NCBI GenBank assembly: GCA_037382465.1
Contig: JARRPX010000020.1
Location: 1-64,000, forward strand
Length of the DNA: 64,000 nt
Direction of reading: 5' to 3'
DNA from: Anaerolineales bacterium
Lineage (GTDB): Bacteria > Chloroflexota > Anaerolineae > Anaerolineales > E44-bin32
Positions 4,062 through 17,731 of this stretch are shown piece by piece (within the stretch, counting starts at the first letter, position 1; the number at the start of each line of letters is the position of its first letter). The translations under genes and the position numbers were made by a program. A model generated the notes under the pieces. The model saw only the letters and a list, made by a program, of their open reading frames with translations, ran no database searches and had not been told where the DNA came from.

Positions 4062-7000
4062 ATGAATTTGAGATTTGCATCTCGTAGCATTTTTCTGCGT
4101 AGGCAAGAAACAGTGTTGGTTTTTACCAGCACTGTCCTTCTAACTATAGCCTTCACGATATTCCTCACCATTTCTTCAGAGACCTCCGTAATCGCCGACC
4201 GATCGCTGGATCAATACTGGCGTACCACCTATGATCTTTTGGTGCGATCGCCGGGTGCAGTGTCGGACATCGAACGCGAGTTTGGATTGGTCGAGATGAA
4301 TCATCTGGCCGGAACATCGGGTGGCATTACTGTTGCGCAGTACGGATTGATCAAAGGCATTGATGGCGTAGATGTGGCCGCGCCGATCGCGATGCTCGGT
4401 TATGTGAATCGTAATGCACCTTTCATTGGTATCTTCGACCCTCTGCCTGCCGGTGTCTATCGCGTTGCTGTTTCCGCGGCGATATGGGATGGAAGCAGAT
4501 CCATAGACGCCACGATCCAAGAACCCTATTATGCATTCTATTACCAGGGCAACGAGCAAATACCTTTTTCCGATGAAGAACTTAATCGAGAATTCCGTGA
4601 GGAATTGATCCGCTTACAACTGGTGCCGGTAGGCACCTCAGATATTTGGGGCTTTATGATACGTACGCCTTCCTTCGAAGATCAGGCGTTGTTGGCGGCA
4701 GTGGATCCGGAAGAAGAAGCCAAACTCATCAACCTCGACCAGATGGTGATTTCGGATGATTACTTGTCCGTTGAGACGTCGCTGACCCACGATCGCAGGG
4801 GGTATCCGCTCATTCCGATTCTGGTGAACATACACGATTACGTGAGTGAGACGATCGCCATTCGGATCGAACGCGTGGACGTTTTTAATGAAAATCTCCC
4901 ACCAGTAGATAGTCTCAAGAATATCTCTGGGCCAGACGAAATCGCTGAAGCGCCGCGCCGGGTTGTATGGGAAGAGACTGTACCGGTAAAACGGGAGTGG
5001 ACGAACGTGGCACCACTCATGGAAATTGCGAATGGTCAGATAGAAAGTGGCTCTTCGACAACCTCTGAATTCGCGGGCTATATTTACGCACCGGCGCCGG
5101 TCCAATACGAAGAGATGAAAGCTATTCCCGAATCTCTCGAAGGGAATGGCCTGGTGTTGGAGGCATTGCCGATTGGTTCGACCTCCACCGAGGAGCATTT
5201 TGAACGAGAGGAACTATGGGCGCCCGACTATCAGGAGCTTCTGCAAAGCATAAGTTGGAAACGATCTCCCGAACTGGTCTTCAGGAAGCTCGAGCCCCGG
5301 CAGAAGGTCCTTTTCGACGTGTTTATCCGTGGCGTGTATGATGTGGATCCGCTGATTGCGTTGTCCGGCGCTTCACCCAACGAAGTGCCGCTTGAAACGT
5401 ACTACCCACCACTGGTCACTCTTGTCTATGATGAAAATGGTGAACCTTACCAGGCTCCAGCCACCCTAAGACCAACACTCAACACCGCAGGCTACCTGGT
5501 CGCTCCGCCGGACATGCTCATATCGCTCGAAACCGCACAGGATTTGATCGATGAATGGTGCGTGGACTGGAAAACAGTTGAGGGAACGCCATATCCAATC
5601 ATTGAACCCATTGAATGTCCATCTGTGAGGGACGACATCATTTCGGCCGTTCGGGTCCGCGTCGGGGACATCGCTGAACTTACCCCGCTGGCTCAAAGCC
5701 GGATCGAGCAGGTTGCGCAAGAAATCGTTGAACTGACGGGTTTACACGTGGATATCATGGTGGGCTCCTCACCTCAACCCGTGTTGGTTCACATCCCGGG
5801 CTATGAAGATGTGCCCGGTTTGGGGTACGTCGAAGAGATGTGGGTCAAAAAGGGGGTGAACACGCTGATCCATACGGGGATCGATCGCGGAGAAGAACTG
5901 CTTTTCGGCGTGTTTCTTCTGGCTTTTCTCCTCTACCTGTTCAACGCCATGTTCGTTTCGATCATAGGCAGGCTTCCCGAATTCGGAGTCATGCTAGCCA
6001 TAGGCTGGCGTAAGCGCACGTTGATCGGATCTGTCATGGGCGAGGCGCTTTTACTGGGGTTGAGCAGTGGTGTTTTGGGCGCGGCGTGTGTCCTGGGGAT
6101 CGTGCAGGTTTTCGATTTGTCGGTGCCCAGGGAATATATCGCATTGCTGATCCCGTTAGGAGCAGGCGCTTTTTTGCTCGGCGCTTTGCTTCCGGCCTTG
6201 CGGGCGGTGCGGTCTTTTCCGGTGCCTGTCATCCGGTCCGGGGAGATCGCGGTGATTGGCCGCGGTTCGGTGAGTTCCAATTTGCTTCGATACATCCTGC
6301 GCGGGATGTTGCGGAAACCGCTTCGATTAGTGGCTACGTCGATTGGGCTGATTCTGGCAGCGGCATCGACGGTTTTCCTGGTTATGGTGTTGTCTGAGTT
6401 GAACGGCAGTCTGTGCGGCACTTTGCTGGGGGAATGGATCTGCACACAGATACGACCCTACCACATCACCCTGGCAATCGTATCCTTCCTATCCGCGATT
6501 TTGGCGATTGGCAAGATGATGGCCACGAATGTCATGGAGCGACGGCGTGAGATCGGACTGTTGGGGGCGCTGGGTTGGCGGCAGGGGACCATTTCGCGAA
6601 TGATCACCGGTGAAAGTGCGTTGATCGGTCTATTCGGCGGGATCCTTGGTACAGTCTTGTCCGTTCTGATCTATCGAATGATTTTCCCGCCGCAATCGAT
6701 CGATGTCTTTACCTGGATGCTGGTGTTCGGTCTGGGCGTGGTGCTCCCAACATTGTCGGCGGCGATGGTCACCAGATTCATGGCGCGCAGAACCATACGA
6801 GTATTCCCCGGGACGGCACTAAGGGGGGCGGGGCGAGGCAGCCTCATAAAGAATCGCCGTCGCGCTTTCGGATGGATTGGTCTCGCAGCGCTGGTTTCCG
6901 TGGTCCTTTTGATTATTTCGTCCCTGGTGTATGCGGACCTGCACGAGGCAGATCGCGCTTCGGTATCGACCCATCTCACATCCATCCCCGCCAGCGCAGT

Positions 7001-8381
7001 GCAGAACACACCTACGCCGATCTATACACCCGCTCCGACCCCCACAGCGGTATCGACGGAGGATTTGAACCGCTACCATATCGACCTAAACGTCGATGTC
7101 GAAGGAAGGAAGATTGAGGGGCATGAAAGAATCGAGTTCACAAATCGAACGGGTGGTGTTTTAAACGCGCTGGCCCTGCGTCTTTATCCGAATTATCCTC
7201 GCCTTACGTCTGAAGGTGAGGAACAGGTGGACCATCTCCGCGTGACGAAGCTCACCATCGACGGGGATACGCTGTCCGACTGGTCGCTCACGGCATTCAA
7301 CACGGCTGTGATTGTGAATCTCGACGATGCCCTGCAGCCAGGTGAGCGCACGACGCTGGATATCTCCTTCGAATTGGAAGTACGTGAAGCGGCCGACGCC
7401 CAGGTAGATGCATGGATTCTTCATTCGTTCTATCCCATGCTGGCGGTTTATGATGAGACAGGTTGGCGTCTGGATGTATGCTCGTATTGCACGGATTTTG
7501 TCTACAGCGAGAGTGCGCTGTACGAGTTCAGCGTAACTGCTCCGAGAGATTGGATCATCGCGGCGACGGGTGAGGAAGTGAACGCCAGCGATAACGATGG
7601 TTGGTCCACGACACATACTTACAACGCAGACGTGGTACGAGATCTTGCGCTGGCAATGAGTCCCTCCTTCCAGGTAAATCGCAGGCAATTCGATGATGTG
7701 AATGTATCCTTGTATGCGCTGACGGATCATTCACAAAACGCCATAATTCTTGATACCGCCGTCGAATCATTAAGCTTCTACGGCGACCTTTTCGGAACCT
7801 ATCCATACGAGAGCCTGGATTTGGTCGTTATGCCGGGCCCGGGAGCTGCCGGGGTGGAATACCCGGGTTTAATCTACCTGTTTTCTTCACAGGAAAGTGA
7901 TCGATTGCCAATACTGACGGCACATGAGGTGTCCCACCAGTGGTGGTACAGCGCTGTCGGCAACGACGTGTTTCTGGAGCCATGGCTAGACGAGGCGCTT
8001 GCCCAATATTCTGCCCTGGTTTTCATGGAAGAAGTCGAGGGCGAAGAAGTCATGCAGCGCTATCTTCGCGATTATGAGGAAGATATCGACCGGCTTGAGG
8101 TTCTGCATGGGACAAGCTTTCCTGTCGGAAGCTCGGTGTGGGAATTTGCACCAAACGGGGAAAATTATTATGAGGTTATTTATTACAAAGGGCCAATGTT
8201 CCTGCATGCGCTGCGGCTCGAGATCGGGGATGAGGCATTCTTCAGCGGCATGCGCACGTATTTCACGCAGTACAAATATGGCATAGCAACCGGGGCGGGT
8301 TTCATCGAAGCCATGCAACGGGCATCCGGCAGGAATTTGCGTGATTTTATGGAAGAATGGCTTGGGCCGATTGGAAGCTGA
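4062..8381 (+). CDS. FtsX-like ABC transporter permease fused to an M1-family metallopeptidase
   Basis: A single 1439-residue frame joins two proteins. Residues 1-980 form a MacB/FtsX-type permease: one N-terminal membrane helix (about 17-39), a large extracytoplasmic domain (about 40-608), then two FtsX membrane blocks (about 610-730 and 750-910), each with the VMERRREIGLLGALGWR-like loop or its equivalent. After another helix (about 937-960) and a Thr/Pro linker comes an M1 peptidase domain (about 1003-1439). It has the zinc motif HEVSHQWW (1288-1295), the third ligand Glu1311 exactly 18 residues after the second His, and GVEYPG (Glu1266) in the position of the aminopeptidase GxMEN motif. 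The peptidase should lie outside the cell membrane. The ATPase gene follows 65 bases downstream. Confidence 0.88.
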   Translation: MNLRFASRSIFLRRQETVLVFTSTVLLTIAFTIFLTISSETSVIADRSLDQYWRTTYDLLVRSPGAVSDIEREFGLVEMNHLAGTSGGITVAQYGLIKGIDGVDVAAPIAMLGYVNRNAPFIGIFDPLPAGVYRVAVSAAIWDGSRSIDATIQEPYYAFYYQGNEQIPFSDEELNREFREELIRLQLVPVGTSDIWGFMIRTPSFEDQALLAAVDPEEEAKLINLDQMVISDDYLSVETSLTHDRRGYPLIPILVNIHDYVSETIAIRIERVDVFNENLPPVDSLKNISGPDEIAEAPRRVVWEETVPVKREWTNVAPLMEIANGQIESGSSTTSEFAGYIYAPAPVQYEEMKAIPESLEGNGLVLEALPIGSTSTEEHFEREELWAPDYQELLQSISWKRSPELVFRKLEPRQKVLFDVFIRGVYDVDPLIALSGASPNEVPLETYYPPLVTLVYDENGEPYQAPATLRPTLNTAGYLVAPPDMLISLETAQDLIDEWCVDWKTVEGTPYPIIEPIECPSVRDDIISAVRVRVGDIAELTPLAQSRIEQVAQEIVELTGLHVDIMVGSSPQPVLVHIPGYEDVPGLGYVEEMWVKKGVNTLIHTGIDRGEELLFGVFLLAFLLYLFNAMFVSIIGRLPEFGVMLAIGWRKRTLIGSVMGEALLLGLSSGVLGAACVLGIVQVFDLSVPREYIALLIPLGAGAFLLGALLPALRAVRSFPVPVIRSGEIAVIGRGSVSSNLLRYILRGMLRKPLRLVATSIGLILAAASTVFLVMVLSELNGSLCGTLLGEWICTQIRPYHITLAIVSFLSAILAIGKMMATNVMERRREIGLLGALGWRQGTISRMITGESALIGLFGGILGTVLSVLIYRMIFPPQSIDVFTWMLVFGLGVVLPTLSAAMVTRFMARRTIRVFPGTALRGAGRGSLIKNRRRAFGWIGLAALVSVVLLIISSLVYADLHEADRASVSTHLTSIPASAVQNTPTPIYTPAPTPTAVSTEDLNRYHIDLNVDVEGRKIEGHERIEFTNRTGGVLNALALRLYPNYPRLTSEGEEQVDHLRVTKLTIDGDTLSDWSLTAFNTAVIVNLDDALQPGERTTLDISFELEVREAADAQVDAWILHSFYPMLAVYDETGWRLDVCSYCTDFVYSESALYEFSVTAPRDWIIAATGEEVNASDNDGWSTTHTYNADVVRDLALAMSPSFQVNRRQFDDVNVSLYALTDHSQNAIILDTAVESLSFYGDLFGTYPYESLDLVVMPGPGAAGVEYPGLIYLFSSQESDRLPILTAHEVSHQWWYSAVGNDVFLEPWLDEALAQYSALVFMEEVEGEEVMQRYLRDYEEDIDRLEVLHGTSFPVGSSVWEFAPNGENYYEVIYYKGPMFLHALRLEIGDEAFFSGMRTYFTQYKYGIATGAGFIEAMQRASGRNLRDFMEEWLGPIGS

Positions 8382-8446
8382 TCTTGCGGGAGATGATCGC
8401 TCGAGATCCGTAAGCGTACTGTGATCGAACGAAAGAAGCGGGCCAA

Positions 8447-9142
8447 ATGACAGGAGAAAATACCATAATCGTCGAGACCGAGGGATTGAGTAAGGCGTAT
8501 GCCAATGGACCGGAGGTATTGGCGCTCGATGACATCAATATGTCTGCGCATAAAGGTGAGTTTGTATCCATAACCGGTCACTCGGGCAGCGGAAAGACCA
8601 CGTTGCTCAATCTCCTGGGTGCGCTCGATCGACCATCGCGAGGCAGGGTTGAGATCGACGGGATAGACCTCAGCACCATGAGTGGGGATGCTCTGGCCGA
8701 TTTCAGACGAAGGACGATAGGCTTCATCTTCCAGTTATTCAACCTGGTACCTTTCATGACGGCGCTTGAAAACGTGATGCTGCCGTTGATACCCTATCAA
8801 CGAGAAATCGATTTCCATCTCGAAACCCGCGCACGGGCGTTACTCAAAGCGGTTGGCATCTCTGAGCGCGCGCAGCACTTGCCGGGTCAGATGAGTGGAG
8901 GGGAGCAACAGCGGGTTGCGATAGCTCGAGCGCTGATCAACAGGCCAAAATTAATTCTGGCGGATGAACCAACGGGTAATGTGGACAGCAAAACCGGAGC
9001 CGAGATCATGGACCTGCTGCAGCGCCTGCAGCAGGAGCATGATGTTTGCATCCTGTTGGCGACACACAATGATGCGCTGGCGGAAATGGCGGAGAGAGTC
9101 ATCGCCTTACACGATGGTCGAATGATGGAGAGCAGCTTGTAG
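8447..9142 (+). CDS. ABC transporter ATP-binding protein, LolD/MacB type
   Basis: ATPase of 231 residues that should power the permease-peptidase encoded just upstream. The Walker A motif is GHSGSGKTT, the signature MSGGEQQRVAIARAL and Walker B LILADEPTGNVDS, which together are typical of the LolD/FtsE/MacB branch. This branch acts as mechanotransmission machines rather than substrate pores. The gap of 65 bases and the same strand suggest one transcript. ATG 8447 begins MTGENTIIVETEGLSKAY, which fits the usual start just before the first beta strand. Confidence 0.95.
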   Translation: MTGENTIIVETEGLSKAYANGPEVLALDDINMSAHKGEFVSITGHSGSGKTTLLNLLGALDRPSRGRVEIDGIDLSTMSGDALADFRRRTIGFIFQLFNLVPFMTALENVMLPLIPYQREIDFHLETRARALLKAVGISERAQHLPGQMSGGEQQRVAIARALINRPKLILADEPTGNVDSKTGAEIMDLLQRLQQEHDVCILLATHNDALAEMAERVIALHDGRMMESSL

Positions 9143-9318
9143 CTGGACTGTGCGTTCACCCATAACCTTGCCGCTTGTGCAATCTGGCGGTATATCCCTT
9201 CCTTCTGTGTATAGGGAAAAATTATCCAAGAAGAGAGGAAAAAGCAGCGGAATTTCTTCCATAATCAGTAAATTCATAATGACCATCTTATTACAGTGTG
9301 TGAATTTCCTGCATATCG

Positions 9319-9356
9319 TTGCCGAAGCGGGCATATTATTTTTCCGGCATCGGCAA
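9319..9356. repeat. Imperfect inverted repeat in a convergent intergenic region
   Basis: TTGCCGA at 9319-9325 pairs with TCGGCAA at 9350-9356, and the stem continues inward with two mismatches. It sits between the ends of two convergent genes (9142 and 9423). No clear U-run follows on either strand, so it may be a weak transcription end or simply a structured spacer. The rest of this 280-base gap shows nothing else. Confidence 0.35.
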
Positions 9357-9422
9357 TATCAAGTTGAGTGGGATCCGGCATTCGGGATTCGAATTGTATT
9401 TTTAGAGTCGTAATCAGTTAGG

Positions 9423-9716
9423 CTAGCTGAAGATCATGGAAACGAGCGCTAGTGCGCCGGCGAGCACCATGCTGACGGCGCCGATTCGAAAACGGGTTTG
9501 CATGGTGAGATTGACCGATTTTCTGAAGCTTTCGACCTCTCGCTGCAAGTCTTCGGGGATCGCATTCATGAATCCTTCTTTCCCCTCTTCTCCTGGTTTG
9601 GCCGTGCTGCTAAAAATGAAGGGCCGCGTTCCACTTCGGGAGTATATCCAGAATAGAATGGCGAAGTAGAAGAAGACAACAGCTGCGATTAGCCAGAGAA
9701 TCCGAAAGGGGTTCAT
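9423..9716 (-). CDS. Small two-helix membrane protein of unknown function
   Basis: Protein of 97 residues with hydrophobic helices at about 5-25 and 75-96 and a charged, soluble middle (PEDLQREVESFRKSVNLTMQT). This gives a hairpin topology with the middle on one side of the membrane. A good ribosome-binding site (GAGGTG, about five bases before ATG 9716) supports the gene. I do not recognise a family. It stands alone, convergent with the ATPase gene and about 150 bases from the end of the next minus-strand gene. Confidence 0.65.
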   Translation of the reverse strand: MNPFRILWLIAAVVFFYFAILFWIYSRSGTRPFIFSSTAKPGEEGKEGFMNAIPEDLQREVESFRKSVNLTMQTRFRIGAVSMVLAGALALVSMIFS

Positions 9717-9848
9717 ATTTTCACCTCGTTCGATCGTTCAACGCGTCTATGATGTCATTGGTAGACAAAGCATAGGCGTGCTTGAACTTTCACGCAAGCG
9801 CTTACGAGCCGCTTGCTCATCCGGGCCGGTGATCGCTGCCGATGGCAA

Positions 9849-9864
9849 ACAGGGAATTCCCTGT
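9849..9864 (-). terminator. Perfect 16-base palindrome at the end of a lipoprotein gene
   Basis: ACAGGGAATTCCCTGT overlaps the stop codon of the minus-strand lipoprotein gene. It could fold into a short hairpin followed by only three U residues, so it is at best a weak intrinsic terminator. It could also be a protein-binding site. Confidence 0.3.
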
Positions 9865-11249
9865 CACGGCGTGAAATCGTAGGAGATGAAATCACCAGCC
9901 GGGCTCACGAGGGCCGTCAGGCTGCCGCCAATCTGACCTCTCATCAGCGTCCAGGCGCCCATTCCGCCCGATAGACAAAAGAACGCGTTGTTGTTTCTCC
10001 AGCGCAAATCGTTACAACTGCCGATCGATGTCGCTGCGCCACCGTCGAGGCCCAACTGCAAATTCAGCGGAGTGCCGAGTGAGTAAACGAAGTGGGTGCT
10101 GTCTGGCGACCAGCCCTGCCATTGAATGCCGCCAGTAGCGTAAACCAATTGTCCGCTTCCATCCGCGTTGGCCAGATACAGATCGTAGACGTTCTGCGTA
10201 CTCGTCTTGCGGATGAAGGCAACCCGCTGCAAATTGGGGGACAAGAGCGGTGCGCTGGAAAACTGTGGGAAGTAAAAATCGCCCCGGATGGTTCCGACGT
10301 TGCTCGCCGCTGCCGTCGCCGTCTGTACGCGCCATATCGTACCGGAAGGTGCCGCGTCGAGTGGATCGGAGGACGGGATGGCCACGCCGAAGGCGTCAGA
10401 ATTGGGAGTCCATACGGGCTGTGCGTAGTATTGAAATTCGCTGTAAGTGATGACGGGCGCGTAAGTGATCAAGTTCGCCTGCAGGTTGCTGCCGTCTACG
10501 TCGGCCAGGCCGATACTGTCGGGTGTGAGCAGAACGAGTTTCGTGCCGTCTGGTGAGAGTGTGAAATCTCCGCCGGTGCCGGGCGGAAAAACGATCGTCA
10601 AATCACCCGTGTCGCTGTCCAGGCGAACGAGGTCATCGTATTTCGCTAATCCCGGACCCTCCGAGGGAACGGCACGAGTGTTGAACATCAGCACATGACT
10701 GCCGGGTATGAATGCAATACCGGCGGTGTCGTTCCGGCTGAACACCGGATCTAAAGGGTAGAGGGCGTCGATCTGCGCCGAAGTCAATAAAGCCTTCTCG
10801 CCGCTGCCATCTGAATTAACGGATCGGATTTCAGGCAGTTGTTCCGGCCCGATGCGGCGGATGAAGGCAACCTTCTGGCAGTCGCTCGAGATCATGACTT
10901 GACCGGCGTCGCCGCTGCTCGTGAGCTGTTGGGGCGGGTTGGCGGCTTCGAGCAGCCATACGTTACCCGCGTCGGTGTAGACGATACAGTGTCGGTTGGA
11001 AACGGCGGCTTCGGGTGAAGGATGTTCGGCGGGTTGTGTGTCTCCCGAAGGAAGCTGGCCGGATTGTGTTTCGGCCGGGGCTTGCTTATTCTCGACTCCA
11101 GATTCTTGTTCGGCCCGAGCCGTCAGTGTCGCTGCGACCGCATTTTCCAACAGGTCTCCCGGTGGAGGGGTTGGCGTCTTGGCGACGGTGCAAGCTGTCG
11201 CGACGATCAGCAGGATCGTAAGGGCAAACATCAGACGTGGTCTGTGCAT
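9864..11249 (-). CDS. Lipoprotein with a TolB/WD40-like beta-propeller
   Basis: Protein of 461 residues with a lipoprotein signal (VATAC, modified Cys20), then a Pro/Thr/Glu-rich linker to about residue 85 and a repeat domain. The repeats have the TolB-like pattern in which values are compared to text-like statements, for example FTLSPDGTKLVLLTPDS, LSPNLQRVAFIRKTS and GWSPDSTHFVYSLGTP. The SPDGxxL/FV motif marks WD40-like or TolB propeller blades. It is probably surface-anchored and binds a ligand or partner; no catalytic site is evident. It lies 99 bases downstream of the acyl-CoA dehydrogenase gene, so co-transcription is possible. Confidence 0.85.
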   Translation of the reverse strand: MHRPRLMFALTILLIVATACTVAKTPTPPPGDLLENAVAATLTARAEQESGVENKQAPAETQSGQLPSGDTQPAEHPSPEAAVSNRHCIVYTDAGNVWLLEAANPPQQLTSSGDAGQVMISSDCQKVAFIRRIGPEQLPEIRSVNSDGSGEKALLTSAQIDALYPLDPVFSRNDTAGIAFIPGSHVLMFNTRAVPSEGPGLAKYDDLVRLDSDTGDLTIVFPPGTGGDFTLSPDGTKLVLLTPDSIGLADVDGSNLQANLITYAPVITYSEFQYYAQPVWTPNSDAFGVAIPSSDPLDAAPSGTIWRVQTATAAASNVGTIRGDFYFPQFSSAPLLSPNLQRVAFIRKTSTQNVYDLYLANADGSGQLVYATGGIQWQGWSPDSTHFVYSLGTPLNLQLGLDGGAATSIGSCNDLRWRNNNAFFCLSGGMGAWTLMRGQIGGSLTALVSPAGDFISYDFTP

Positions 11250-11348
11250 GGCTGTCTCCGCAATTCGGATATCGGCATTATACTCGCAGCCGGAATTATC
11301 GCAGCGTTGATCTTGAAAAGGCGTCGAGCTTTGCTCGACGAATAGGGC

Positions 11349-12194
11349 CTAATATTCGTAAAAACCTTTGCCGGACTTGCGTCCCAGTTGACCCGCATCG
11401 ACCATCTTGCGCAGCAGCGGCGCTGGACGGTATTTATCGTCGCCGAGATCGTGATGCAGCAGTTCCATCACCTGAAGGACGACGTCGAGTCCGATCAGGT
11501 CGGCCAAGGCCAACGGACCCAGCGGGTGGTTCATGCCCAACTGCATCACGGTGTCGATGGCCTGCGGCGTTCCCACCCCTTCCATCAAGGCGAAAATGGC
11601 TTCGTTGATCATGGGGCCGAGGATGCGATTGGATATGAAGCCCGGTGAATCCAACGCCTGGACGGCCTCTTTTCCCATCTTGCGAGCGACCTCGAAGACG
11701 GCCTTGGTGGTGTGATCCGAGGTGAGCAAGCCGCGCACGATTTCCACGAGCTTCATCAGCGGCACGGGGTTGAAAAAATGCATGCCGATTACTTGCTCTG
11801 GCCGTTGGGTGGCGGCGGCGATTTTCGTTATCGGAATAGAGGAAGTGTTCGAAGCCAGGATCGTTGTCGGGGGAGCCAGTTCATCGAGGCGGTTAAAGAG
11901 ATCGAGTTTCAGATCCACGTCTTCCGGGGCGGCCTCGATAACCAGATCGGCCTCAGCGACGGATTCCAGGTCCAGTGCGGTGTTCACGTCCGATGCGGCA
12001 AGCCGCTGTTTTTCGTCGATCGTTCCCTTTTCGACGAGCTTGTCCGTCGACTGCTTGATGGATGCCGTGGCTTTCTGCAGCGCCGCGGAATCGACATCGG
12101 TCAGCGTAACCCGGTATGCTGCGATTGCCGCCGTTTGGGCGATGCCGCTGCCCATCGTGCCGGCGCCGACGACCACGATGTTCTCGATTGCCAC
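11349..12194 (-). CDS. 3-hydroxyacyl-CoA (3-hydroxybutyryl-CoA) dehydrogenase
   Basis: NAD(P)-dependent oxidoreductase of 281 residues that interconverts 3-hydroxyacyl-CoA and acetoacetyl-type CoA. The dinucleotide fold is at the N-terminus ([14 protein letters not shown]), and the catalytic segment SNTSSIPIT...[15 protein letters not shown] carries His139 and the partner Glu. The C-terminal dimer domain ends in [11 protein letters not shown], a hallmark of short PaaH/Hbd enzymes. It follows the thiolase gene by 45 bases on the same strand. Together they catalyse two consecutive steps of butanoate or beta-oxidation metabolism. Confidence 0.95.
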
Positions 12195-12239
12195 GTTATT
12201 TCTCCCCTCTCGGAAACGCTGTTTGCGTTCGCGCTGTTT

Positions 12240-13460
12240 CTATCCTTCGGCTTCGAGTTCCACGGCCATGGCGACGGCCTCTCCGCCGCCCAGGCAGAGC
12301 GCGGCGATGCCGCGCTGAAGATTGCGGTCCCGCAACGCGTAAAGCAGCGTCGTGAGGACGCGTGCGCCGGATGCGCCGATGGGATGTCCGAGGGCGATGG
12401 CGCCGCCGTTTACGTTGACTTTGTCCCAGTCCCAGCCGATCTCTTCCAGCGCCGCCCCGTCGGCGAGAACTTGTGCGGCGAAGGCTTCGTTCAATTCGAT
12501 CAAATCCACATCCTGCAGCGTCCAATCTATTTTGGCGAGCAGCCGCGGAATGGCGTGTGCCGGTGCGATGAACAAGGATTTCGGGGGAACCGCAGATTGT
12601 GCGTAGCCGCAGACCCGCGCCATGGGCGCCGTTCCCATCTCGTCGGCTTGCCGGCGGCTGGCGTAGACGACGGCAGCGGCGCCGTCGTTCAACCCCGGTG
12701 CGTTGCCGGCCGTCACCCTGCCGTTGGGCGTGAAGGCCGGTTTCAGGGCGGCCAGCTTCTCCAACGAAGTCTCACGCCGCGGCGTCTCGTCTTTTTCAAC
12801 ACGCGTCCGTGTGCCTTTCCTGCCGGGCACCTCGACTGCGACGATTTCAGCGTCGAACTTGCCGTCGTCCATGGCCGTGACCGCTTTTCGATGGCTTTCT
12901 ACGGCCCAACGATCCATCGCTTCGCGGCTGATGTCGAATTCTTCGGCGATCCACTCAGCGGCCATTCCCATGACCCAATCTTCGAAGGGATCCCACAATC
13001 CATCGTGCAGTAGGGCATCCGTAAGTTCAGCATTGCCGTAACGCAGTTCTCCGCGCCTGCCCCGTACGAGGAAAGGTGCGTTACTCATGCTTTCCATGCC
13101 CCCGGCAACGATCAAGCTGGCGTCCCCCGCTTTGATGGCCTGGGCAGCGAGCATGCCCGATTTCAAACTCGATCCGCATACCTTGTTCACCGTCGTTGCA
13201 CCTACCGTTGGTGGCAAACCGGCGAAGATGGCCGCTTGCCGGGCCGGAGCCTGGCCGAGGCCGGCTGAAACCACGTTGCCCATGAGCACTTCGTCGATTT
13301 GCGCCGGGTCCGGAATGCCGGCGCGTTCGACGGCTTCTCGAACGGCAGCTGCACCAAGCTGCACGGCAGAAAGTGGACTCAGTACGCCCTGAAAACGGCC
13401 CATGGGTGTGCGCACGGCACTCAAAATGACGGGATCAAGCTTGTTTGTTGCTTCACTCAT
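12240..13460 (-). CDS. Acetyl-CoA acetyltransferase (thiolase)
   Basis: Thiolase of 406 residues. The nucleophile is Cys95 in NKVCGSSLK, and the C-terminal GHPIGASGAR and CLGGGEAVA motifs supply the catalytic His and second Cys. It condenses two acetyl-CoA or cleaves 3-ketoacyl-CoA. It is the first gene of a pair with the 3-hydroxyacyl-CoA dehydrogenase. Unlike the second thiolase homologue in this window (33528-34721), all catalytic residues are intact, so this copy could supply acetoacetyl-CoA to other pathways. Confidence 0.96.
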   Translation of the reverse strand: MSEATNKLDPVILSAVRTPMGRFQGVLSPLSAVQLGAAAVREAVERAGIPDPAQIDEVLMGNVVSAGLGQAPARQAAIFAGLPPTVGATTVNKVCGSSLKSGMLAAQAIKAGDASLIVAGGMESMSNAPFLVRGRRGELRYGNAELTDALLHDGLWDPFEDWVMGMAAEWIAEEFDISREAMDRWAVESHRKAVTAMDDGKFDAEIVAVEVPGRKGTRTRVEKDETPRRETSLEKLAALKPAFTPNGRVTAGNAPGLNDGAAAVVYASRRQADEMGTAPMARVCGYAQSAVPPKSLFIAPAHAIPRLLAKIDWTLQDVDLIELNEAFAAQVLADGAALEEIGWDWDKVNVNGGAIALGHPIGASGARVLTTLLYALRDRNLQRGIAALCLGGGEAVAMAVELEAEG

Positions 13461-13510
13461 ACACTACCTCTTCAATGTTGGGGTTTGTTTGGCATTTGGA
13501 ACGAGGATCG

Positions 13511-14014
13511 TTAGCCACGCAGATCGGAACTCAATTTCACCCACGCCGCATGAAGCCGCCGGTACGTCTCTTCCAATGACTCGGGCAGAACGCGCGTGTC
13601 TGCGCTGGTGGTCATGAAGCTGGTGTCGCCCGTCCAGCGCGGCACGATGTGCACGTGGATGTGCTCTGCAATGCCGGCACCGGCCGCCTCGCCAATATTA
13701 ATGCCGACGTTGAATGATTCGGCGTTGTACACCTCGCGCATGACGGCCAGAGTCTGGGTGGTTAGCTGCATCAGTTCGTTCCGCGTCGCTTCGTCTAAAT
13801 CTTCGAGCGAGGCTTTGTGCTCGAACGGCACGACCAGCGTGTGGCCGTTGGTGTAGGGGAAGCGGTTGAGGATGACGAAGGTCTGTCGGCCGCGATGTAA
13901 GATCAGGCTCTCCGAATTGTCGTCCATCGCCGCACGGCTGCAGAAAATGCAGCCTTTCTCCTTAACCTTTCCTTCCACGTAGTCCATCCGCCAGGGAGCC
14001 CAGATTCGTTTCAT
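13511..14014 (-). CDS. HIT-family nucleotide hydrolase/transferase
   Basis: Protein of 167 residues with the histidine triad HIHVHIVP (from His118). The N-terminal segment MKRIWAPWRMDYVEG and the pair C22/C25 (GCIFC) place it with the Fhit-like/Ap4A phosphorylase-type HIT proteins that bind zinc. The likely reaction is cleavage of dinucleoside polyphosphates or nucleoside phosphoramidates in the cytoplasm. It is divergent from the biotin ligase gene, with 84 bases between their starts. Confidence 0.93.
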   Translation of the reverse strand: MKRIWAPWRMDYVEGKVKEKGCIFCSRAAMDDNSESLILHRGRQTFVILNRFPYTNGHTLVVPFEHKASLEDLDEATRNELMQLTTQTLAVMREVYNAESFNVGINIGEAAGAGIAEHIHVHIVPRWTGDTSFMTTSADTRVLPESLEETYRRLHAAWVKLSSDLRG

Positions 14015-14086
14015 GCTTCGACGGATGGATTCTATCAGAGAATAGCCAAATGGAAAACGTCATGGCATGCATCCTGCACCAGCGAG

Positions 14087-14092
14087 TACAAT
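14087..14092 (+). promoter_or_regulatory. Candidate -10 box for a leaderless biotin ligase transcript
   Basis: TACAAT ends six bases before ATG 14099, so transcription would start at or next to the start codon. The only purine-rich sequence (GGAG) is one base from the ATG, too close for normal ribosome binding. No good -35 box is seen. Confidence 0.35.
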
Positions 14093-14098
14093 TGGAGT

Positions 14099-14911
14099 AT
14101 GACGATTGCTGCTGATCTGCGTGCCAGACTCCCGATCCAGGGGTTGGGCGACCCGTTCTTTTATCACGAAACAATCGCTTCGACGAACGATGAAGCCCTG
14201 GAACGGGCACGCCAGGGAGCTGCCCACGGGGCGTTGGTCTTCGCCGAGGAACAAACGGCAGGCCGCGGCCGCGCCGGTAGGCACTGGTTCACGCCGGCGA
14301 AAAGCGCCCTGGCTTTCAGTTTGGTGCTGCGACCGCAGCTGGACGATTCACAGGAAGTCTTCGGGCTTGCCGGCCTGGGCGCCCTGGCGGTAGTGAAAGC
14401 CCTCGAGACGTGGACCATTCGGGCGGCCATAAAATGGCCCAACGATGTGTTGATCGACCGGCACAAGATCGCCGGCATCTTGGTCGAGACATCCTGGGCC
14501 GGAGTGGAACTGGAGTATGCCGTTATGGGAATCGGCATCAACGTGCAGAGGCAGTCGGTTCCTGCGAAGGATGCGCTGGACTATCCGGCGAGCTGCATCG
14601 AAGCCGCCGTGGGCAAACGAGTCGATCGCTACGATCTGTTCATCGACGTCCTAGAATCTCTTGCATATTGGTACGAACGATTGGGCAGCGAGGAGCTGAT
14701 CGACGCGTGGCAGCATCATCTGGCGTTTCTCAACCAAACGGTTGTCGTGCGCGATACAACCGGGGAACGGACCGGTGTGTTGTGCGGGATGACCGTGGAC
14801 GGACGGCTGCGTTTGGAAACGCCTCAGGGAGAGCAGTTTCTTGCAGCCTGTGGAGATGTACGTATGCGTTCGGTTGACACAAACTTCAAATCGGCTACAC
14901 TTGGCGAGTAA
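14099..14911 (+). CDS. birA: Biotin-[acetyl-CoA carboxylase] ligase
   Basis: Enzyme of 270 residues that activates biotin with ATP and attaches it to the carrier domain of biotin-dependent carboxylases. The ligase core has GRGRAGRHW, the biotinyl-AMP-binding loop, and KWPNDVLI plus KIAGILVE, the ATP and lysine sites. The SH3-like C-terminal domain follows (about 220-270). There is no N-terminal winged-helix DNA-binding domain, so it is a class I ligase without the BirA repressor function. It is divergent from the HIT gene and followed by a small membrane protein gene after 26 bases. Confidence 0.95.
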   Translation: MTIAADLRARLPIQGLGDPFFYHETIASTNDEALERARQGAAHGALVFAEEQTAGRGRAGRHWFTPAKSALAFSLVLRPQLDDSQEVFGLAGLGALAVVKALETWTIRAAIKWPNDVLIDRHKIAGILVETSWAGVELEYAVMGIGINVQRQSVPAKDALDYPASCIEAAVGKRVDRYDLFIDVLESLAYWYERLGSEELIDAWQHHLAFLNQTVVVRDTTGERTGVLCGMTVDGRLRLETPQGEQFLAACGDVRMRSVDTNFKSATLGE

Positions 14912-14937
14912 GGTTTGCTCCTTCAGGGAGGGCAGGT

Positions 14938-15150
14938 ATGTTCGACAATTTACGTGAATTAACTGACGGACCGATGGAATACGAGGAGGAGCGCAAACGC
15001 CTTTTCGATGTCGAAGAACAGATCGCTCCTGAACGACGGATTTTTGGCATGACGTCGGGCCAACGGTTGGTGTTGGCGGTACTCTTGATGGCTACGGTGA
15101 TGGTTATGGGAGCAGCTTGTCTGTTGGTGACGGGAAAAGTCTGGTATTGA
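14938..15150 (+). CDS. Small single-helix membrane protein of unknown function
   Basis: Protein of 70 residues: an acidic, charged N-terminal half (YEEERKRLFDVEEQIAPERR) and one hydrophobic helix at about 46-67 near the C-terminus. A strong ribosome-binding site (GGGAGGGCAGG) precedes ATG 14938. It follows birA by 26 bases and is closed by a strong terminator, so it is probably the last gene of the birA transcript. No family recognised. Confidence 0.7.
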   Translation: MFDNLRELTDGPMEYEEERKRLFDVEEQIAPERRIFGMTSGQRLVLAVLLMATVMVMGAACLLVTGKVWY

Positions 15151-15178
15151 CGTATTTTCGATCGCGGCGTACAAGTTT

Positions 15179-15206
15179 CAAAGGGCGCATGTTCATGCGC
15201 CCTTTG
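15179..15206 (+). terminator. Rho-independent terminator
   Basis: A perfect 12-bp stem (left arm CAAAGGGCGCAT, loop GTTC) is followed by TTTG/TTC. It closes the birA and small membrane protein transcript and lies before the convergent acylase gene. Confidence 0.85.
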
Positions 15207-15295
15207 TTTGTTCTCCAGGATACTCCGAGCTGCGTTACCGGCTCTTCGCTTCTAATTTCTCCGGTTCGTTCCACTCATTCTCTCGAAATCCATTT

Positions 15296-17731
15296 CTAGC
15301 CATCGCTGGGCTTGAGGGTCAGGTGGGCTTCGGAAGCCGCAATTACGTCTTGTTTGGCCCACAGCATCGCGTGGTATTGGATGTTGCGCCACAGGTCGAT
15401 CATGTCATCGTAGTGCGTGTGGAACGCGTGACCGGATTGACCGGTGGTGTGAATCGAAATCGAACGGCTGAAGTCGGCCAGATCGATGATCTGCCGATAG
15501 GACGGCACGATGGCCACGTCGTATGAATTGCCCAGATCGTATCCCGTGTTGTTTACGGTAAAGAACGATCCGTCCACTTCGACCGGGCCGCGGTTGAAAA
15601 TCGCTTCGATCAAGCCGATCCCGCTCTGCCCCAGGCTTTGGTTTTCGAATGTGGCCCGATGCAGATCGCCCCAGCGCCACTTGGACATCGACTTGCCCAG
15701 CGACTCGCTGAGTTCGTCCACCGCGGCTTCGAGCGCGCGGAGCAGGATGCTTTCGCGGTTTTCGACTTCCTGCGTGTAAACATCGTCGAACCAGACTGCG
15801 TCGGCGTTGGGCAGCGTGTTGACCAATGCGGTGAGCAGCGAGGGACGGGCTTTCTCCAGCAAACGCTCGCCCAACTCATCGCCATACACCTGGTCGATCA
15901 TGTGGATACGCAGCGTTTCGAACAACGCGGCCGCGGCGCTCTCCCGCACGGTCCGCCCATCCCATTGCCGCAGCAAGTCCACGGCTTCCGACAGTCTCGC
16001 CTCCGCCGGATCCAGTTCGAGGATGTAAGGCAGGACGTCCTCCACGTAAATCTGGTTGTCGTTGCCTTGCATGGATTGGATGTATTGGATCGAGATCGAG
16101 TCGTTCGCTTCGATCATCTCCACGATGCGGCGGGCGCGGAAGCCGGGCGCCCAGTCTACGGTGATCGTGTAGGGGTATTCCTCGCCCACGACGGCATGAT
16201 TGGCGGTGGCGACGTAACCCTTCTCAGGATTGAAGGACCTGGGCAGTTCGTCGAACGGAATGTAGTCGACCCACTCGTAGTCGCCGCTCCATCCGGGAAC
16301 GGGGATCGATCCGTCTCCGCTGGCGCGGATGGGAATGCGTCCCGGTGCCTGATAACCGATGTTGCCGTCCACGTCGGCGTATACGAAGTTCTGGCTGGGT
16401 ACGTCCCAGTAGCGCAGCGCGTCGCGGAATTCCTCCCAGTTCTGGGCCAGATCGATGCGCAGGACGCTCTCCATCAACCGCGAGGGCTGCAGCGCGGTCC
16501 AGGAGAGCGCCAACGGCTGCCAGCCGAAATACCATTGATCCTCCGTGCCGCCGGCGACGTCGTTGATGATCGGTCCGTGCTGCGTGATGCGCACGTTGAC
16601 GACGATGGGATCGTCATCTCCGGCAACATTGATTTCTTCCTGGATCAAATCCATGTCGAGCCATTCGCCGCGAAATTCGTACTGGTTGGGATTCTCGGGG
16701 TTGATACGTTCGATGAACAAGTCCTGCACGTCGGGACCCAGATTGGTGACTCCCCAGGCGATGCGTTCGTTGTGCCCGATGATCACGCCCGGTGCACTGG
16801 CGAAGGACGATCCGACCACATCGAACGGGCACTCCGGTCCGACGGGTTCGCAGTGCAGGCCGATCTCGTACCAAATCGAAGGCATCTGGATGCCCAGATG
16901 GGGATCGTTGGCCAGGAGCGGCATTCCGGTTTCGGTTCGCTCGCCGGAAATGACCCAGTTGTTGCTTCCCAGGCTGAATCCTTCTCCGAATACGTTGAAA
17001 TCATATGCGGCCGCGGGAATCGAGTCCAGCGTCGCGTTCGTCAGGGTTTCGGGTACGATGACCGGGTAGTCGCTGTTGTAGGCGGGAATGATTTCCGCAA
17101 CGGCGTCCGTTCCCAGGCGCGCGGCGACGTTGGCGCGCAGCAGTTCCATGTTCTGGTTGCCGCTCAAATCCCAGGCCATGACCTTGGCCCAGGTCAGTGT
17201 ATTGAGCACGGTCCAGGGCTCGGGCTCGATTTTAACGCCCGTGAGTCCCAATATCGTGAACTCGAAACTCAAGGGTTTGGTTTGCGTCTCGAGATAGGCG
17301 TTGACGCCTTCCGCATAGGCCTCCATGACCGCCAATGCCTCGGGCGACAGAAGTTCGACTTCTTCTGCTGCCGCACGATGCCATCCCACCGTGCGGATGA
17401 ATCGATCGCTTTCCAGCGCACTCGGCCCGAGGATTTCGGCCAACCGTCCGCTGCCGATGCGGCGCCAGAATTCCATCTGCCAGAAGCGGTCTTGCGCGTG
17501 AATAAATCCCTGGGCCATGAAAAGATCGTGTGTGTTGGCGGCGTAGATGTGGGGAATCCCGAAGGAATCGCGGTAGACCTCCACGGGCGTCTGCAGGCCG
17601 GGGAGTTGAATCACTCCTTCGGTTAGCGGGAAAGACTGGCGACTGCTGATGTACCCTGCGATGACGAGCGCAATTGCGAGCAGGATGATGATAATCATGA
17701 AGATAATCACGGACTTTCGTACACGAGCCAT
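15296..17731 (-). CDS. Penicillin-acylase-family N-terminal nucleophile hydrolase
   Basis: Preprotein of 811 residues with an N-terminal membrane/signal helix (about 7-27). It should be cleaved autocatalytically into alpha and beta chains. The new N-terminal nucleophile is Ser256 in LGSNNWVISG. The DPHLGIQMPSIWYEIGLH segment and the N-terminal VYRDSFGIPHIYA plus AQDRFWQMEFWRRIGSGRLAE blocks are diagnostic for the S45 family. Members hydrolyse amides such as acyl-homoserine lactones, penicillins or acylated peptides; the substrate here is unknown. ATG 17731 has GGGAGG upstream. It is divergent from gyrA. Confidence 0.94.
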   Translation of the reverse strand: MARVRKSVIIFMIIIILLAIALVIAGYISSRQSFPLTEGVIQLPGLQTPVEVYRDSFGIPHIYAANTHDLFMAQGFIHAQDRFWQMEFWRRIGSGRLAEILGPSALESDRFIRTVGWHRAAAEEVELLSPEALAVMEAYAEGVNAYLETQTKPLSFEFTILGLTGVKIEPEPWTVLNTLTWAKVMAWDLSGNQNMELLRANVAARLGTDAVAEIIPAYNSDYPVIVPETLTNATLDSIPAAAYDFNVFGEGFSLGSNNWVISGERTETGMPLLANDPHLGIQMPSIWYEIGLHCEPVGPECPFDVVGSSFASAPGVIIGHNERIAWGVTNLGPDVQDLFIERINPENPNQYEFRGEWLDMDLIQEEINVAGDDDPIVVNVRITQHGPIINDVAGGTEDQWYFGWQPLALSWTALQPSRLMESVLRIDLAQNWEEFRDALRYWDVPSQNFVYADVDGNIGYQAPGRIPIRASGDGSIPVPGWSGDYEWVDYIPFDELPRSFNPEKGYVATANHAVVGEEYPYTITVDWAPGFRARRIVEMIEANDSISIQYIQSMQGNDNQIYVEDVLPYILELDPAEARLSEAVDLLRQWDGRTVRESAAAALFETLRIHMIDQVYGDELGERLLEKARPSLLTALVNTLPNADAVWFDDVYTQEVENRESILLRALEAAVDELSESLGKSMSKWRWGDLHRATFENQSLGQSGIGLIEAIFNRGPVEVDGSFFTVNNTGYDLGNSYDVAIVPSYRQIIDLADFSRSISIHTTGQSGHAFHTHYDDMIDLWRNIQYHAMLWAKQDVIAASEAHLTLKPSDG

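Follow-up and report, generated by a model that had tools for sequence, protein, structure and literature searches.

Type VII ATP-binding cassette (ABC) machines, the MacB superfamily, are believed to act by moving external parts, not by carrying cargo through the membrane, and a partnership with a hydrolase has been shown only recently (PMC12646458). What is known of these machines, and above all the YbbAP-TesA structures from E. coli, indicates that the external parts of the permease shift upon ATP binding (PMC12646458; review PMC5985334) and that a hydrolase outside the membrane can dock on the permease, its active site turned towards it (PMC12646458). Here we describe an open reading frame (ORF) of an uncultured Anaerolineales bacterium (Chloroflexota) that joins an FtsX-type permease and a family M1 zinc peptidase in a single chain. 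It occupies positions 4062–8381 of a 64,000-nucleotide stretch (contig JARRPX010000020.1), hereafter the window; the window genome is designated G000 in alignments with the genomes G350 and G1002.

YbbAP-TesA is a closer analogue of this locus than FtsEX. Both have a tandem Type VII permease, a separate ATPase, and an external hydrolase, which in E. coli is thought to receive substrates from the permease (PMC12646458). However, YbbP has ten transmembrane (TM) helices, including a linking pair, and two periplasmic domains, whereas the window permease has eight TM helices plus a ninth and one large external domain; and TesA is a separate GDSL esterase, whereas the M1 peptidase is covalently joined. 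The permeases MacB, LolCE and FtsX share the FtsX-like TM block with the window protein but not its tandem build, its 580-residue external domain of no recognised fold or its enzyme tail.

The original prediction held that known fusions of ABC permeases with M1 peptidases are mainly of the ABC-2 type. In line with this, three ABC-2/M1 chains appeared among the matches from other phyla (L083, L092 and L095). These also place the permease N-terminal and the M1 peptidase C-terminal, but their permease is ABC2_membrane, whereas Pfam finds FtsX alone in the window permease, and the spacing to their third zinc ligand is 19 residues, as against 18 in the window protein. A degenerate active site in these chains was considered and ruled out, the HEXXH motif being present with 19 residues to the Glu. 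PCAT peptide exporters, too, carry a peptidase on the transporter chain for a peptide client. Theirs is a C39 cysteine protease that works inside the cell, before export, whereas the window protein is predicted to carry an external metallo-aminopeptidase; the two are not homologous. What is new here is the type of enzyme, the covalent join, the unusual layout of the tandem permease and the likely peptide client; for a Type VII ABC machine to have an enzyme as its partner is not new in itself. Our literature searches found no FtsX-type/M1 fusion, no permease–peptide family of the kind described below and nothing on MauE with Cys-rich peptides in Chloroflexi, which is no proof of absence.

Permease and peptidase in one reading frame

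The ORF at 4062–8381 (forward strand, as are all window features below unless stated) is open over 1439 codons, with no stop and no N, in agreement with the single uninterrupted frame that had been predicted. The 1439-residue product consists of a tandem MacB/FtsX-type permease, a ninth TM helix, a Pro/Thr-rich linker and a two-domain M1 peptidase, in this order. Pfam FtsX is found in two stretches, both above the curated cut-off (the better one at residues 803–910, E = 1.6e-20), and Peptidase_M1 at residues 1230–1433, also above its cut-off (E = 8.5e-24).

The same domain order occurs in two other genomes. Among 396 genomes of the class, G350, which belongs to another family, encodes a fusion with 50% identity over residues 397–1437; its gene is cut by a contig end and is directly followed by an ATPase gene. 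A complete fusion of 1440 residues, collinear with the window protein (38% identity over 1444 columns), is encoded by G1002, one of 350 genomes of the order. Because the fusion is found in these two genomes, and the G+C content along the window ORF is fairly even (0.52–0.60), an assembly join, which the original prediction had named as a way in which it could fail, is excluded. So is the other such outcome, that the two parts are always separate genes elsewhere. The permease/M1 fusion in the window is thus confirmed as real.

The fusion was not seen again in the 24 genomes of the family of G350, nor in the 27 genomes of the window's own family, where the M1 proteins are separate. Fusions apart, the nearest M1 relatives stand alone as proteins of roughly 500–570 residues, encoded elsewhere in the same and in related genomes. 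A tree of the permease part, built without G1002 (which was found later), joins the window protein and G350 with full support. In addition, the external domains of all three fused proteins share an insert with two cysteines (Cys500 and Cys519; 5547–5630), and no Cys-bearing insert is present in the other 33 permeases of alignment A4.

Topology of the permease part

Hydropathy indicates nine TM helices. TM1 (residues 19–37; 4116–4172), part of a long helix (residues 14–52) in the AlphaFold2 model, is followed by about 580 external residues. This large domain (residues 38–616; 4173–5909), delimited by topology, model and alignment, has near its start a WR-xx-YD motif (consensus YWRTTYDILVR). The first FtsX-like block, TM2–TM4 (residues 617–716; 5910–6209), and the second half, TM5–TM8 (residues 758–910; 6333–6791), which has a short external loop after TM5 and contains the better FtsX match, are each defined by Pfam, hydropathy and the model. 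TM9 (residues 938–956; 6873–6929), which coincides with a helix at positions 3–31 of the tail model, is preceded by basic residues, and hydropathy and charge together predict that it places the tail outside. The Pro/Thr-rich linker that follows (residues 961–1003; 6942–7070) is mostly predicted to be disordered, with a predicted local distance difference test (pLDDT) score below 50 over residues ~961–993.

AlphaFold2 models the 960-residue permease part with a mean pLDDT of 82 and a predicted template modelling score of 0.80, and the tail with a mean pLDDT of 88. As read from sequence and model, the layout is one of two MacB-like halves in tandem, of which only the first has a large external domain, and both that domain and the M1 tail are predicted to lie outside the cell. 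The two-block permease with a large external domain that had been proposed is therefore borne out by Pfam, hydropathy and the model alike, and the recommended modelling of the topology gives eight TM helices plus TM9. MacB, LolE and YbbP are among the best structural matches to the permease model (Foldseek). An FtsX-type TM block and an external domain after TM1 place the protein with the Type VII machines. Its size and layout are not FtsX-like overall, since the permease part is a 960-residue tandem and the FtsX matches in Foldseek span only ~130–200 residues. Nor is it an ADOP permease, as the duplicated-permease model TIGR03434 scores 25.6 bits against a cut-off of 622.3.

The M1 tail and the adjacent ATPase

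Pfam, the model and Foldseek agree on a two-domain M1 metallopeptidase at residues 1004–1439 (7071–8378). The best-fitting short structures are those of the two-domain M1 enzyme of Deinococcus radiodurans (PDB 6iff, 6a8z), with a template modelling score (TM-score) of 0.73 by target length; it likewise lacks the usual C-terminal domains but is a peptidase alone, with no transporter part. The active site is the one expected of family M1. The zinc motif HEVSH (residues 1288–1292; 7923–7937) is followed, 18 residues after His1292, by the third zinc ligand Glu1311 (7992–7994). Glu1266 (7857–7859), in a G-VEYP motif that replaces GAMEN, presumably recognizes the substrate N-terminus, and Tyr1374 (8181–8183), in IYYKG (VYxKG in relatives), is the presumed catalytic tyrosine. 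His1288, Glu1289, His1292 and the intervening Val and Ser, together with Glu1311, Glu1266 and Tyr1374, are invariant across the 30 M1 tails and standalone relatives of alignment A3, and all catalytic residues are kept in G000, G350 and G1002. By its residues, then, the catalytic unit is complete, and the active site described in the original prediction holds in every particular. M1 domain I also contains a CxxC motif (Cys1140 and Cys1143; 7479–7490), which is present in G000 and G350 and absent from G1002 and from 28 standalone M1 proteins.

An ABC ATPase of the LolD/FtsE/MacB type, identified by Pfam, family models and motifs, is encoded 65 bp after the fusion gene (8447–9142). Its Walker A, signature, Walker B and switch His are all present, as expected of a Type VII machine. 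LolD is the best family model (E = 7.7e-70), but its 234.8 bits fall short of the cut-off of 307.75, and the score is also below the curated cut-off for FtsE. An ATPase is thus indeed next door, as had been noted, and the term LolD-type holds for it as a resemblance only. A role in anti-phage defence was considered and rejected, PADLOC having returned nothing beyond generic ATPase and LolE-like TM matches.

M1-tailed, M28-tailed and tailless members of the permease family

The WR-xx-YD motif marks a distinct family of permeases, of which the window protein is a member. At the thresholds used, this family is present in 19 of the 396 class genomes, in 17 of the 350 order genomes and in 25 of 400 genomes drawn from the phylum. 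Most members end right after TM8. Five (in G165, G228, G279, G513 and G986) have an M28-like tail instead: Pfam M28 scores above the cut-off in the tails of G165 and G228 and in the whole proteins of G279 and G986, whereas G513 remains below it (12.4 bits against 21.3). Aligned with the M28 enzymes of their own genomes, four of these tails lack the bridging Asp, and in G986 the position is, by eye, a Gln. This pattern suggests that in the M28-tailed sister proteins the tail binds rather than cuts. We note that the G165 protein (L136, 2527–7554; 1676 residues) has, besides its M28-like tail, an extra N-terminal part of ~290 residues before the permease, for which there was no confident Pfam family match.

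The permease tree separates the M1 pair, G165 and the G228/G279/G513 group from one another, some of these branches being long and unsure. This arrangement fits best with at least three separate gains, so that peptidase-fold tails were probably acquired three times or more.

Cys-rich peptide genes beside the permeases

Most class-type permeases have, immediately upstream, a gene whose product is a small peptide, mostly of 80–100 residues, hydrophobic near its N-terminus and containing many cysteines (L135, 7775–8083; L136, 2141–2446; L137, 8055–8363 and 11732–12004; L138, 4420–4680; L174, 5158–5460; and further loci L178, L179, L181, L182 and L184). The peptides of this unnamed family are often rich in Trp as well. 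When 18,809 ORFs of 220 loci were searched with a profile built from twelve of them, matches came from loci of this permease family only, and neither from M1-only loci nor from the 64-kb window. Since the first twelve peptides went into the profile, independence can be claimed for the later finds alone. Weaker examples in the same position, directly upstream, came from additional genomes of the order. By our count, the peptide gene accompanies the permease in about 20 of the 35 genomes with class-type permeases, and contig ends truncate several of the other loci.

Frequent neighbours encode redoxin (AhpC-TSA), DsbA-like and MauE proteins. We take these sets of peptide, redoxin and MauE genes to recall the maturation of the methylamine dehydrogenase small subunit. 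G1002, one of the genomes with a peptide gene, combines these elements with an M1 fusion. Its cluster, running in one direction (L254, G1002:C4:111000-130500; 5568–15455), consists of a tailless permease, an ATPase, a PD40 lipoprotein, a DsbA-like protein, the Cys-rich peptide (93 residues) and the permease–M1 protein, whose gene starts 30 bp beyond that of the peptide. Two variants were observed among the small proteins. Upstream of the M28-tailed permease of G228, the place of the Cys-rich peptide is taken by an 80-residue small secreted protein with a single Cys (L172, 9319–9561, reverse strand), and in peptides of the f15 genomes (L139, 7713–8414; L147, 4130–4609) the hydrophobic stretch is preceded by an initial RRxxL, resembling a Tat-type signal.

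A proposed peptide-gripping and -trimming machine

On the reading best supported here, the window protein would be a Type VII ABC machine whose exopeptidase is part of the permease chain. The permease would work with two copies of the ATPase, whose binding and hydrolysis of ATP would move the external domain by mechanotransmission, with nothing carried across the membrane. The external domain would hold a small secreted or membrane-attached peptide, from whose N-terminus the tethered M1 tail would trim residues outside the cell. The principle is that of YbbAP-TesA (PMC12646458; review PMC5985334), which we infer to apply here with the hydrolase covalently joined. As relatives adjoin genes for Cys-rich secreted peptides, such peptides are the ones that the machine may pull on and trim; across the wider family they are the likely clients, with disulfides that would be made by the neighbouring redoxin, DsbA-like or MauE proteins. 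The extra cysteines of the fused proteins (Cys500 and Cys519, and the CxxC in two of the three) suit a Cys-rich client but prove nothing. We give this whole chain of grip and trim a probability of about 0.45. The broader proposal is more tentative: that a new Type VII family of the phylum handles disulfide-rich secreted peptides, some members carrying an apparently active M1 or a degenerate M28 module and coupling ATP-driven movement to trimming or gripping. As a natural fusion fixes both partner and stoichiometry, the driving or gating of an external enzyme by ATP becomes testable in a single protein, and the exchange of M1 and M28-like tails, with the link to Cys-rich peptides, provides a concrete client to test.

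Several observations weigh against this proposal. Over its whole length the permease gives low fold scores (TM-score 0.2–0.3, Foldseek), and the external domain is for this reason without a recognised counterpart. The disordered linker of ~40 residues speaks against a rigid transmission of force to the M1 domain. It would suit an uncoupled fusion, in which the M1 domain is a surface aminopeptidase feeding on extracellular peptides and the permease a mere anchor with a job of its own, as would the standalone nature of the closest non-fused M1 relatives. Yet three divergent genomes (38–50% identity) have retained the fusion, with an insert limited to M1-fused permeases, and one permease family has probably gained peptidase-fold tails three or more times; we regard an uncoupled fusion as unlikely, though the likeliest of the alternatives. 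Given the M28-like tails without the bridging Asp, a tail in this family is not necessarily an enzyme. If all five such tails on sister permeases are a guide, the M1 tail, too, might be mainly a peptide-binding or docking module, with catalysis secondary or lost, but every catalytic residue is kept in all three M1 tails, which makes this improbable.

A further weak link is the client: sought in three ways, a Cys-rich peptide gene was found neither upstream of the window gene nor elsewhere in the 64 kb nor, with confidence, in the genome (best E = 0.15). The upstream flank of the G350 gene lies off the contig. The missing peptide gene at the G000 locus would accord with a defence against antimicrobial peptides, in which the permease detaches a peptide from the membrane or from its target in the manner of BceAB, itself among the Type VII permeases (PMC5985334), and the M1 tail, an aminopeptidase that would cut linear peptides, degrades it. 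However, where the family has its peptide gene, it lies directly upstream in the same direction, which fits a client better than an enemy, and no sensor kinase was noticed adjoining the window gene; such a defence seems to us equally improbable. Least probable is the control proposed in the original prediction, in which cell-wall remodelling by an external hydrolase would be triggered by ATP hydrolysis, as in FtsEX. FtsEX belongs to the same ABC superfamily and does act on hydrolases, but the analogy ends there. The ~900-residue tandem permease with its huge external domain is neither FtsX-sized nor FtsX-like beyond the TM blocks, no division or wall genes were noticed adjoining the fusion gene, and the family context is one of Cys-rich peptides and thiol-redox proteins. 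Moreover, M1 enzymes are aminopeptidases that remove N-terminal residues from peptides, and not peptidoglycan hydrolases.

Other genes of the window

Two further ORFs are mentioned for completeness. Between the ATPase gene and a PD40-like ORF (9864–11249, reverse strand) lies an ORF of 97 residues with a strong N-terminal TM helix (9423–9716, reverse strand). Upstream of the fusion gene, the product of 434–1636 appears by eye, rather than from a family search, to contain two tandem peptidyl-prolyl isomerase (cyclophilin) domains.

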